This document shows positions 57,745-60,864 of a DNA stretch of 64,000 bases, piece by piece. The DNA is from Borrelia sp. P9F1 (lineage in GTDB: Bacteria; Spirochaetota; Spirochaetia; Borreliales; Borreliaceae), in the NCBI RefSeq assembly GCF_030436115.1, contig NZ_CP129407.1, positions 275,265-339,264 of the forward strand, read 5' to 3'. Under the pieces are notes generated by a model, which searched no databases, had not been told where the DNA came from, and saw only the letters and a list, made by a program, of their open reading frames with translations. The stretch's first letter is position 1. Each line of letters starts with the position of its first letter. The translations under genes were made by a program, and so were the position numbers.

Positions 57745-57772
57745 ATTATATCCTTTTCCAAAAGATTTTTAA
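57745..57772 (-). promoter_or_regulatory. Sigma-70-like promoter of the FecR-like gene
   Basis: Minus-strand TTAAAA (57772-57767), 16 bases, TATAAT (57750-57745). RNA would begin near 57738, giving a leader that contains the GAGGAG site before the proposed ATT start. Confidence 0.5.
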
Positions 57773-57810
57773 CTTTAGAGAAAATGAAAATACGTTGTAG
57801 CTTTGCCTGA

Positions 57811-57838: not shown

Positions 57839-57911
57839 TTTCCCATGAGGACTCATAGAGGGAACGAAGCTGTAGCTGGTGTGGTGGACGTTATGTAACG
57901 GGGGTGTGCTT

Positions 57912-57992
57912 ATGATAAAAGGCAAAAAATTATCATTTTTTACTTTATAGGTGCCTGTTCTTTACCTCTTGTCGTGCAGGTGTTGTCGCTGA
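57912..57992 (+). pseudogene. Array unit 1: broken lipoprotein signal peptide
   Basis: ATG 57912 begins MIKGKKLSFFTL and meets TAG at 57948-57950. Reading on in the same frame gives VPVLYLLSCRCCR and a stop, so a lipobox (LLSC) is still in frame behind the nonsense codon. The beginning resembles the final unit ([10 protein letters not shown]). Upstream GGGGGTGTGCTT replaces the AGGATGTGTTT site. Reads as a decayed copy. Confidence 0.7.
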
Positions 57993-58080
57993 CTAGGCTG
58001 ACTCCTCGGATGAATACGGGGGTTCAGGGCTCGGTGGGGGTAAGTGTTGGTGCTGAACTGACAAACAGTTGTGCATGTTG

Positions 58081-58153
58081 TGTACTGAGAGTACATATAG
58101 TAAGAATTAAGAGTGGGGTATTGGTTACTTAAGGGCTTATCTGTCTTAAGTAA
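58081..58153 (+). promoter_or_regulatory. Array unit 2: leader hairpins
   Basis: TTACTTAAG (58125-58133) pairs perfectly with CTTAAGTAA (58145-58153) across an 11-base loop, ending about 31 bases before the start codon of unit 2. A second small hairpin, TGTACT/AGTACA with a three-base loop, lies at 58081-58095. Confidence 0.75.
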
Positions 58154-58184
58154 GTGATGCCACCGGTAGTGAGGATGTATTATT

Positions 58185-58346
58185 ATGATGAAAAAAAACA
58201 ATTTATTAAAAAACAGTTTATCATTTTTGGTTTTGTCGGCGTTTATTTTGTCCCTGTCTTCATGCAAGACCCACAATGTTTATCATTGCAAACCTCCTCG
58301 AGGGGAAGGGGCTGGGGCTTCTAGTATTTCAAAGCCAGCTGTCTAG
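58185..58346 (+). CDS. Array unit 2: 53-residue mini-lipoprotein
   Basis: An intact small gene starting ATGATG after GAGGATGTATT. The product has a basic N-terminus (MMKKNNLLKN), a hydrophobic core, the lipobox SLSSC with Cys27 and a 26-residue tail (KTHNVYHCKPPRGEGAGASS and ISKPAV). A second Cys stands eight residues after the lipidated one. It should be a very short membrane-tethered lipopeptide. A run of eight A follows the start codon. I know no family. It is too similar to the start of the LysM lipoprotein to be chance. Confidence 0.7.
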   Translation: MMKKNNLLKNSLSFLVLSAFILSLSSCKTHNVYHCKPPRGEGAGASSISKPAV

Positions 58347-58479
58347 GTAAAGTAGGGGTATTGCTGTTAAGGTAGTGGCGCCTGCGTGTCACATAGAATA
58401 TTAAAACGAGAGCATCGGTGACGAGGCTAGGTTGGCTTTAGATAGCCGGTGTTGCTCGGTGATTGAAAAGGATCTATTT

Positions 58480-58629
58480 ATGATGAAAAAAAACAATTTA
58501 TTTCTTCTGATTTTGTCTTTACTTGCTCTTTCTATCCTGTCGTGTGAGACTGTCAATAATATCTATGACTGCGATCCAAATCAAGAAGACGGTGGGGCTG
58601 GAGCTCCTAAAATTTTAAAAAGAAGATAG
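58480..58629 (+). CDS. Array unit 3: 49-residue mini-lipoprotein
   Basis: ATGATG at 58480 after AAGGATCTATTT. The signal peptide MMKKNNLFLLILSLLALSIL ends in the lipobox ILSC (Cys23), followed by a 26-residue tail beginning ETVNNIYDCDPN and ending GAGAPKILKRR. The Cys nine residues on and the GAG motif are shared with unit 2; ILKRR aligns with VSKRS of the full-length protein. Also has a run of eight A after the start. In-frame GTG at 58432 lies in the leader and is unlikely. The leader hairpin is poor here (GGCTA/TAGCC only). Confidence 0.72.
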   Translation: MMKKNNLFLLILSLLALSILSCETVNNIYDCDPNQEDGGAGAPKILKRR

Positions 58630-58686
58630 GAGTATTGCTGTTAAGATAGTGGTTTTTGCGTGCCACAAGTACTATTGAGAATGGAA

Positions 58687-58730
58687 GTGCCGGTTACTTG
58701 AGGGATTAAGTTGTCTTAAGTAACCGGTGC
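58687..58730 (+). promoter_or_regulatory. Array unit 4: strong leader hairpin
   Basis: CCGGTTACTTGAG (58690-58702) pairs with CTTAAGTAACCGG (58715-58727): 13 pairs including one G-U, with a 12-base loop. Three more pairs (two wobble) can extend it to 58687/58730. It is the best-formed copy of the repeated leader structure, although the gene behind it is broken. Confidence 0.85.
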
Positions 58731-58752
58731 TGCGTGATAAGAGGACGTATTT

Positions 58753-58895
58753 ATGGGGAGTAGAAGAAAATATATTTTCGGGTTTTCCTGCGTTTGCTTT
58801 CCCTGTTTTGTAATATAAAGTCCGTAGTATGCACTTGCTAGGCACAATCTGGAGTAACGATGTTCGCAATTTCGAAGCCATTTTGGGAGAAAAGC
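58753..58895 (+). pseudogene. Array unit 4: degenerate copy
   Basis: GAGGACGTATTT and ATG 58753 are in the expected place, but the frame gives 21 residues without a lipobox (MGSRRKYIFGFSCVCFPCFV) and stops at 58816. Base by base the region still aligns with the hydrophobic core of unit 2, and ATTTCGAAGCC at 58869-58879 matches the ISKP codons of its tail. Small deletions have disrupted the frame. Confidence 0.65.
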
Positions 58896-58901
58896 AAGGG
58901 G

Positions 58902-58931
58902 TTGATGTTAGGTTAATGGCAGTTGTATAAT
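58902..58931 (+). promoter_or_regulatory. Array unit 5: sigma-70-like promoter
   Basis: TTGATG (58902-58907), 18 bases, TATAAT (58926-58931). The TTGATG belongs to the TTGxTG block present in the other spacers (TTGGTG before units 2 and 6, TTGCTG before 3 and 4), but only this copy has a perfect -10, which suggests that the others have weaker or altered promoters. Confidence 0.55.
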
Positions 58932-58965
58932 AGACCAAAAGTGTTGTATGAGATAAAGGTGTTGG

Positions 58966-58994
58966 TTGCCTAAAGGCTAATTTGTGTTAGGTAA
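58966..58994 (+). promoter_or_regulatory. Array unit 5: leader hairpin
   Basis: TTGCCTAA (58966-58973) pairs with TTAGGTAA (58987-58994) over eight positions with one G-U. Compared with the unit 2 and 4 stems, bases on both sides have changed while pairing is kept, which supports selection on the RNA structure. Confidence 0.65.
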
Positions 58995-59023
58995 TGGATG
59001 CGTGCGATGACGAGGATGTGCGT

Positions 59024-59155
59024 ATGATGAAAAAAAGCGATTTATTTTTGATTCTACTTGTGTTTATTTTTTCTCTCTTCTCCTGTGAGACTGCCCCAGA
59101 AGAAAGAAGATGCGAGGATTACAGAATTTTAAAGCCCTCTGGAAGCACAGAGTAA
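59024..59155 (+). CDS. Array unit 5: 43-residue mini-lipoprotein
   Basis: ATGATG at 59024 after GAGGATGTGCG. The signal peptide MMKKSDLFLILLVFIFSLFSC ends at Cys21. The tail begins ETAPEERRCEDYRILKPSG, with a second Cys nine residues after the first and a C-terminus aligning with the other units. A run of seven A follows the start codon. CET directly after the lipobox matches unit 3 and the full-length lipoprotein. Confidence 0.7.
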   Translation: MMKKSDLFLILLVFIFSLFSCETAPEERRCEDYRILKPSGSTE

Positions 59156-59222
59156 GGTATTGGTGCTTATGTTAGTGGGCAAGTTGTATTACATTTAGAT
59201 GTATCATTAAGAAACAAGGGTT

Positions 59223-59259
59223 CTGGTTACTTAAAGACTGAGCTATCTTGGGTAATCAG
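59223..59259 (+). promoter_or_regulatory. Array unit 6: leader hairpin of the LysM lipoprotein gene
   Basis: CTGGTTACTTAA (59223-59234) pairs with TTGGGTAATCAG (59248-59259), 12 pairs including three G-U, with one more G-C pair beyond a bulged A. The stem ends 26 bases before the start codon at 59286. Confidence 0.75.
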
Positions 59260-59285
59260 TGCTACACAATAACAAGGATGTGTTT

Positions 59286-60422
59286 ATGATGAGAAAAGGC
59301 AAACTGTTATCTTTGATTTTATCTGTGCTTACTTTATCTCTAGTCTCATGCGAGACTCCTCCAGAAGACGCTAAGAGTGAAAATGCCAGGGTTTCGAAAA
59401 GAAGTGGGACTGGGCAACCTGAAGATTTGCAGAGAGACGTTGAGGATGTTAAAAATGAAGTCTTAAGAGAGAGGGGAAATCTTTTTTATTCCAAAGAATT
59501 TAACGAGGCTGAGAAAGCTGAAAAAGAAATGAGGGAAAAATTTAAGAAAGGAAATACTCAAGAGGGAAATGAAGTTGCTATAAAAGCACTGGAGCGGTAC
59601 AGAAGCATTGCAAGGGATACAATAGAGAAAAAAGAGAAGATAAGCTACCTTAAGGAAAATATTGAAAAATATCTAAACGACGCTGAAGCGAACGAAGCAT
59701 ACATATGGATACCATTAGAAGTTGATGAGGTAAATAATCTATATTTCGAAGCTACTCGAAAATACAAGGTGTACGATATGGAAAATTCCCTTGGTATGTA
59801 TAGCAAAGCCTTCAATAAGGCTCAACAGACAGCTAAGAAAGCAAGGGAATCAAGGGCTCTTAAGGAAACAGACGAGAGGATGTATAAACAATTGAAAGCA
59901 CTTGAAGCAGCTTCTAATTTATCTGTTTACAGTAATAGCAAACTTATTAAGCCATCTCCGTGGAATGGAAGAGCGCTCATTAAAGACAAGGGAGCGTATA
60001 TGAATCTTTTGGACTTGGAAGGTGGTGCTTATTTACTAGGAAAAGTTGATTTTCCGTTGGTACTTGCCTACGAGGAAGAAGCTGAGGAAATAAAGAGATC
60101 GGATTCAAACAAATTTAAAACACTTCAGCTCATCGAGAAATCTAGGCAGTTATGGGAACAGGGCCTTGAAGCTAAAAGACTTAATAATCTTAGACTCGCA
60201 AATGAATTGTTTCTAGATTCTGCAAGATACTTGGAAGCTTACCAAAGCCATGCAAGTAAAGAGCTCTACATAGTGAAGATTGGGAACACCTTGTGGGGGA
60301 TTTCTAAGAAATTATACCAAGATCCTTATTTGTGGCCAAAAATTTGGTTTGCAAACAGACAAAAGATACAAAATCCGGATTTAATACATAAAGATTGGAA
60401 GATCATAATTCCTTCTAAGTAA
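59286..60422 (+). CDS. LysM-domain lipoprotein (BB0323-like)
   Basis: A 378-residue lipoprotein. The signal peptide [20 protein letters not shown] ends in lipobox LVSC. A long charged helical region follows, with TPR-like features (about 45-310), then a C-terminal LysM domain (about 333-378: [31 protein letters not shown]) that should bind peptidoglycan. The B. burgdorferi orthologue is required for cell separation and infection, and is processed into N- and C-terminal parts. The chosen ATG (59286) has AAGGATG upstream; the frame is open to 59259. It is the last and only full-length member of the tandem array, and a terminator follows. Confidence 0.92.
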
Positions 60423-60425
60423 AAT

Positions 60426-60463
60426 AAAAGAAGAAAACAGGTTTTTACTTGTTTTCTTCTTTT
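60426..60463 (+). terminator. Terminator hairpin after the LysM lipoprotein gene
   Basis: AAAAGAAGAAAACAGG (60426-60441), six-base loop, CTTGTTTTCTTCTTTT (60448-60463): 16 pairs with one G-U, beginning four bases after the stop codon and ending in T. Low in G+C but long. Confidence 0.7.
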
Positions 60464-60510
60464 AAATCTAATAAAATCAATTTGGTAAGTTTCTAAGAAA
60501 GGGAATAAAG

Positions 60511-60864
60511 ATGAAAAAGTTGGTGTTGGCAGGGACTTTTCTCTTTTCTTGCTATACAGCAAGTTTAGAGGAGCTGACAAAAGAAACTCCTTATGGTATT
60601 TATTTAAGAGAAGCTCAAAAAGCAATGAATTCAAACGACTACCGATCCGCTTTGAATGTGTACGAAAAAATGATTGAAATTCACAAGGACAATGCTGGCA
60701 TAGTTGCCACCGGAAAATACGAAATCGCGTTTATAAACTACACCATAGGTAAAAAGGACACAGCAAAAACTTTGTTTGAAGAATTAATAAAGTCCGGCAT
60801 TAAAACACCCAAGTGGATTCTACCATTAGCCAAAAAGATGATGGAAAAGATAACTAAGACCTGA
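60511..60864 (+). CDS. Small TPR lipoprotein (BB0324-like, BamD-related)
   Basis: A 117-residue protein with a short lipoprotein signal (MKKLVLAGTFLFSC, Cys14) and two TPR-like helical pairs (LREAQKAMNSNDYRSALNVY; ATGKYEIAFINYTIGKKDTA). BB0324 of B. burgdorferi is a component of the outer-membrane beta-barrel assembly complex and related to the N-terminal part of BamD. GAAAGGG precedes the ATG. A terminator separates it from the LysM lipoprotein gene. It ends 13 bases from the convergent VWA gene. Confidence 0.88.
   Translation: MKKLVLAGTFLFSCYTASLEELTKETPYGIYLREAQKAMNSNDYRSALNVYEKMIEIHKDNAGIVATGKYEIAFINYTIGKKDTAKTLFEELIKSGIKTPKWILPLAKKMMEKITKT

Follow-up and report, generated by a model that had tools for sequence, protein, structure and literature searches.

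A small two-cysteine lipoprotein gene beside BB0323 in Borrelia, probably derived from BB0323 and amplified in varanid species

In front of the BB0323-like gene of Borrelia sp. P9F1 lies a series of short units that we interpret as copies of a small two-cysteine lipoprotein gene (hereafter the mini gene), which would have arisen by partial duplication of BB0323, been amplified in varanid Borrelia, and served as an accessory of the cell envelope. We give this reading as a whole a probability of roughly 0.6; within it, the view that the mini is a gene is well supported, and a role in the envelope exercised through its second cysteine is probable. Comparison of the sequences points to a small gene that is real and conserved, and to an array confined to one lineage.

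Organisation of the array in P9F1

The window analysed is a stretch of 64,000 nucleotides of P9F1 DNA, and all coordinates given here are positions in it. Five additional start units precede the gene for the BB0323-like LysM lipoprotein, with a BB0322-like gene, encoded on the minus strand, on their other side. The six start regions, at 57912, 58185, 58480, 58753, 59024 and 59286, are 262–295 bp apart. An initial annotation had described them as a tandem array of three intact units, two broken ones and the full-length gene, and this description held: the open reading frames were as claimed (43, 49 and 53 aa for the intact minis), and most pairs of units aligned better than shuffled sequences (for example units 2 and 5, z = 14.6; units 5 and 6, z = 23.4; units 3 and 4, z = 13.3), with unit 1 resembling the others weakly (z 2–7).

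All of the units are on the plus strand. Unit 1 (57912..57950), assigned from its sequence and from unit orthology, has a Shine–Dalgarno sequence and start followed by a broken mini reading frame with a stop after 12 codons. Unit 4 (58753..58818) is also broken, having a stop after 21 codons and no lipobox. The intact minis are unit 2 (58185..58346; 53 aa, SSC-KTHNVYHC), recognised as an open reading frame and by profile, unit 3 (58480..58629; 49 aa, LSC-ETVNNIYDC), recognised by profile, and unit 5 (59024..59155; 43 aa, FSC-ETAPEERRC; profile E = 3e-22), which of the whole array is nearest to the ancestral single mini. Unit 6 (59286..60422) is the full-length BB0323-like lipoprotein of 378 aa, with a C-terminal LysM domain and a single cysteine, that of the lipid anchor.

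That the units might share nothing beyond chance or the generic signals of lipoproteins, an alternative which the initial annotation had itself raised, is ruled out by the unit z-scores together with the matches to a locus-specific profile. The units are mostly 60–77% identical to one another and Tandem Repeats Finder reports no array at the P9F1 locus, from which we conclude that the array is old and diverged. The GC content of the array is 0.41, against 0.345 in the other noncoding stretches of the window; this was considered as a sign of an RNA gene and dismissed as unremarkable. GC skew is positive across 57840–60800, which takes in the array and BB0323, and is opposite to that of the flanks, in agreement with the reversed gene strand.

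Distribution in Borrelia and Borreliella

The search for the family covered two genera, Borrelia and Borreliella. At least one intact mini gene was found at the BB0323 locus in 18/18 Borrelia genomes searched, comprising relapsing-fever and reptile species, and in all 18 the minis lie between the BB0322-like and BB0323-like genes on the strand of BB0323. The mini profile matched this locus in every one of them, with best E values of 3e-26 to 3e-18, and had no comparable match in other parts of these 18 genomes; in P9F1 no match outside the locus was better than E = 0.017, and no plasmid homologs of the mini were found. Four genomes gave a weak profile match to a 32-aa frame near 566 kb; this was rejected as chance, the frame having neither lipobox nor cysteine in the two of them in which it was read. 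The same profile search detected no mini at the locus in 18 Borreliella genomes: in 17 the only match there was to the N-terminus of BB0323 itself (one of these had an extra weak signal-peptide match on another contig), and the remaining genome gave no match. The intergenic region between BB0322 and BB0323 measures 271–320 bp in ten Borreliella, with no mini; 501–568 bp in 15 Borrelia genomes, with one intact mini; and 952, 1602 and 1887 bp in AG58, P9F1 and RT5S respectively.

Extra units, three to six in each genome, are present in these last three, the varanid Borrelia. P9F1 is ‘Candidatus Borrelia rubricentralis’, from a tick on a monitor lizard; its assembly and that of ‘Ca. B. undatumii’ AG58 are short-read metagenomes, and that of B. 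salvatorii RT5S, the genome nearest to P9F1, is hybrid long-read (PMC10481545). Because RT5S was assembled with long reads, the array is not a short-read artefact. In the BB0323 tree the three varanid species group together (100/99), beside the single-unit B. turcica IST7 (genome G016) and genomes G011 and G015. The tree and the distribution together indicate that Borrelia ancestrally had a single unit and that the array is a later, varanid amplification; the comparison across Borrelia proposed in the initial annotation has thus shown that the gene is not peculiar to P9F1.

Units 1, 2, 3, 5 and 6 of P9F1 correspond to units 1, 2, 4, 6 and 7 of RT5S (z 22–40; unit 1 z = 22, unit 2 z = 40, unit 3 z = 34), and unit 5 matches both RT5S unit 6 (z = 26) and AG58 unit 3 (z = 20). 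Unit 4 pairs by position, and weakly (z = 9.5), with RT5S unit 5, their bodies being 51% identical with many gaps, and it scores higher against RT5S unit 4 (11.9). AG58 units 1, 3 and 4 correspond to P9F1 units 1, 5 and 6. AG58 has unit 1 intact where P9F1 and RT5S have it broken, and P9F1 unit 4 is broken like its positional counterpart, RT5S unit 5.

A separate tandem duplication of about 47 bp, covering the Shine–Dalgarno and start region of BB0323, was seen in Borreliella tanukii (locus L039:5940-6010) and B. yangtzensis (locus L040), which suggests that the start region of BB0323 is prone to duplication.

The predicted product and its second cysteine

In each of the 24 intact minis a signal peptide with its lipobox is followed by exactly one cysteine besides the lipidated one, mostly at +9 from it and otherwise at +8, +10, +11 or +15, within a mature length of 19–34 residues. 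The second cysteine is lacking in AG58 unit 2, which is degenerate in appearance. The N-terminus of BB0323 shares with the minis the leader position, signal peptide, lipobox and CETPPE tether, and the two are homologous; the minis differ in ending about 20–30 residues after the lipidated cysteine, in lacking the folded and LysM domains and in possessing the second cysteine. BB0323 has no cysteine after the lipidated one, and a mini-derived cysteine tail occurs in it in no species. The earlier description of the tails as plain copies of BB0323 consequently has to be given up, both for the second cysteine, which is absent from BB0323, and for the tails of units 2 and 3, which have diverged.

No family model matched the minis above its cut-off, and the weak matches obtained look like signal peptide. 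The Treponema clustered lipoprotein model (TIGR01781/PF09710) did not reach its cut-off, the best value being E = 1e-4 among 6 members; unit 5 scored 10.5 bits over model positions 1–37 of 412, against a cut-off of 294. The colicin lysis protein model (PF02402) likewise gave no significant match (E = 0.046, in 1/19 members). VirB7 of type IV secretion systems is a tiny lipoprotein whose second cysteine forms disulfides. It resembles the minis in being small and in carrying one further cysteine close behind that of the lipid, but the genes flanking the minis are BB0322- and BB0323-like, none at the locus belongs to a type IV secretion system, and the NCBIfam match is not significant (PRK13859, best E = 0.058, in 2/19 members). 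Borrelia is not known to make LPS, in contrast to the setting of LptM. LptM (YifL) is a small outer-membrane lipoprotein that acts by mimicry (PMC10567701); like the minis as proposed here, it is a short lipoprotein assisting a larger envelope machine, but there is no sequence match between them (NF047847, E = 0.14 in 1/19 members).

It had also been suggested that the short lipoproteins compete with the full-length protein. The N-terminal domain of BB0323 binds BB0238 (PMC5462797), and the crystal structures of BB0323 are built from residue 43 onward (PMC12758692). Since the minis match only the flexible, disordered tether before that residue, competition at the crystallised interface, for the known partner of BB0323, is unlikely.

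Selection and gene conversion

Pooling the three intact unit pairs of P9F1 and RT5S gave pN 0.18 and pS 0.44 (Nei–Gojobori). As such counts ignore transition bias, we used a neutral null matched to the transitions and transversions actually observed (2000 simulations); the intact array units lay below this null in all 2000, and the tail alone gave p = 0.017. The tails of single-unit species gave p = 0.044 and 0.0085 in two partly overlapping sets of pairs, and tails compared across the deepest split in Borrelia gave p = 0.0005–0.05 in four comparisons, which share branches and are not independent. Taken individually, with low power, the array tails gave p = 0.04, 0.09 and 0.35, the last being the unit 3 ortholog tail, which shows no constraint. 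The substitution pattern indicates that the intact orthologous units of P9F1 and RT5S are under purifying selection. The broken units provide an internal control: between P9F1 and RT5S the bodies of intact mini units are 73–87% identical, whereas those of broken units are 51–60% identical with many gaps.

Exchange between the mini and the full-length gene is evident in two species. Over the first 26 codons the mini of B. turcica differs from its own full-length gene at 3/78 bases, against at least 11 from the mini of any other species, and in genome G015 the corresponding values are 2/78 and at least 10; in genomes G007, G012, G003 and G002 and in B. persica, mini and full-length gene diverge separately. 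These near-identical tracts of about 70 bp in the signal region (loci L047 and L048) indicate recent gene conversion within the chromosome. The tract runs through the signal peptide to CCAGAAGA and ends before the tail. Because conversion can keep the signal region intact, selection is more fairly judged from the tail.

These observations bear on whether the units do anything at all. The amplification could be non-functional, the product of slippage and unequal recombination in a start region prone to repeats, with conversion from BB0323 keeping relics intact in appearance; the conversion tracts of B. turcica and G015, the two broken units in P9F1 and again in RT5S, and the small duplication described above for Borreliella tanukii and yangtzensis would all fit such a history. 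We consider it unlikely, as the mini-specific tail lies beyond the conversion tracts and is nonetheless conserved genus-wide, and broken units have diverged faster than intact ones. The phrase ‘decaying donor copies’ in the initial annotation suits units 1 and 4 only. The idea that the units are donors for gene conversion is in part upheld by the converted signal regions of the two species, but the tract stops before the mini-specific cysteine tail, so that the minis are not mere donors.

A more elaborate form of the donor idea, in which the units form a silent store for the antigenic variation of BB0323, comparable to the vls or vsp cassettes, seems to us very improbable. The likeness is that in the vls and vsp arrays of Borrelia, too, tandem partial copies adjoin an expressed full gene and undergo some gene conversion. 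Cassettes of that type, however, are highly alike, at about 90% (PMC11499132). The copies here are mostly 60–75% identical, cover signal and tether only, and form self-contained, chromosomal reading frames with their own leader, Shine–Dalgarno sequence, start and stop rather than lacking expression signals; their tails are themselves selected, and BB0323 is free of the mini-derived cysteine tail in every species.

Proposed origin and role

The duplication of a control region and signal peptide to give lipopeptides, as first proposed, agrees with the homology of the units, the comparison across Borrelia and the purifying selection on intact units. In the reading that we prefer, a partial tandem duplication of BB0323, taking in its leader, ribosome site and signal peptide and the first ~17 codons of the mature protein, would have founded the mini gene, of which most Borrelia kept one copy and varanid Borrelia, after amplification, several. 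Each intact unit would be transcribed with or beside BB0323, translated, exported and lipidated, yielding an anchored peptide of 23–28 residues in the envelope. The second cysteine would probably form a disulfide-linked dimer or join a partner, making the peptide an accessory to the outer-membrane and division machinery of BB0323. Extra copies may raise the dose and permit divergence of the tail, with units 1 and 4 as dying copies. A more specific version, that the two-cysteine lipopeptides dimerise by disulfides and tune the link which BB0323 makes between outer membrane and peptidoglycan, with the varanid set diversified as an adaptation to host or tick, is in our view improbable. Counting against the accessory-gene reading are the fact that Borreliella does without a mini gene and the consideration that the signal-peptide part could owe its intact state to conversion from BB0323, with no selection on the mini itself.

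No description of the mini gene was found in the open-licence literature searched, and it is absent from the section on chromosomal synapomorphies in the genome paper of 2023 on varanid Borrelia (PMC10481545). The BB0323 locus has been studied in B. burgdorferi for its part in infectivity and envelope function, and as the mini was not found in the B. burgdorferi group, a conserved neighbour gene in Borrelia would go unnoticed. If correctly read, the locus offers a clean case of a small-protein gene built out of a signal peptide and its tether, in which live copies, dying copies and single copies can be seen together.

Leader hairpins and promoters

The hairpins reported for most units were recovered by a covariance model (R1), all on the plus strand, ahead of unit 2 (58109..58164, 51.3 bits), unit 3 (58403..58456, 40.5 bits), unit 4 (58678..58734, 58.4 bits), unit 5 (58950..59005, 50.9 bits) and unit 6, the BB0323-like gene (59211..59266, 60.4 bits); that of unit 1 is not clear. 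A helix of 15 pairs is common to sixteen leaders (those of the varanid units, of B. turcica and of G011); 90% of its cells are paired, against 28–50% when the helix is slid. Double changes in the helix numbered 15, against 6.9 in shuffled alignments (1/500 shuffles as high), but the number of pairs with a double change was not unusual (173/500 as high). With that count ordinary and the units related, the covariation is good but not overwhelming. In the P9F1 genome the model found the five units (E ≤ 2e-5) and one weak match elsewhere (E = 0.026). The hairpin matched none of the Rfam leader and riboswitch families at the gathering score, and no intrinsic terminator was found in the array region. 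Single-unit species have weaker hairpins near the same position, and their mini leaders fold weakly in common; the BB0323 leaders of 12 aligned genomes of such species gave no consensus structure.

The TTGxTG block noted earlier sits after the mini stop codon, and upstream of unit 5 it could serve as the −35 element of a candidate sigma-70 promoter, TTGATG-18-TATAAT (58902..58931, plus strand), located by consensus scan ahead of the leader hairpin. This is one of two sites in the region matching the consensus at 10/12 positions, and TATAAT also precedes units 6 and 7 of RT5S and unit 3 of AG58. As the scan total was not above chance (7 sites against 4.4 expected, sd 2.2), the internal promoters are candidates only.

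The selected part could instead be the duplicated promoter and leader hairpin, with the mini frames as translated leaders whose product is irrelevant. Such a cis-regulatory array would account for the covarying hairpin, confined to the locus in P9F1 except for the one weak match, for the candidate promoter upstream of unit 5 and the decay of the distal −10 element in varanid species, and for the conservation of leader and spacer, mostly 80–92% against 71–79% at fourfold sites of BB0323 in most single-unit pairs. We regard it as possible but doubtful, since a pure leader needs no lipobox, no extra cysteine (24/24) and no amino-acid constraint in the tail. On the accessory-gene reading, decay of the distal −10 would leave internal promoters to drive transcription of the array.

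When 18 upstream regions were aligned, TGTAGC at 57796..57801 (plus strand) was recognised as the remnant of the ancestral distal −10. This element is TATAAT or TATACT in single-unit Borrelia and TATAAT in the aligned Borreliella; among the varanid species it reads TGTAGC in P9F1, is disrupted in RT5S and reads TATTAG in AG58. At this distal promoter (57767–57801 of the window; loci L045 and L046), growth of the array has gone along with loss of the −10 in P9F1 and RT5S and with its alteration in AG58.
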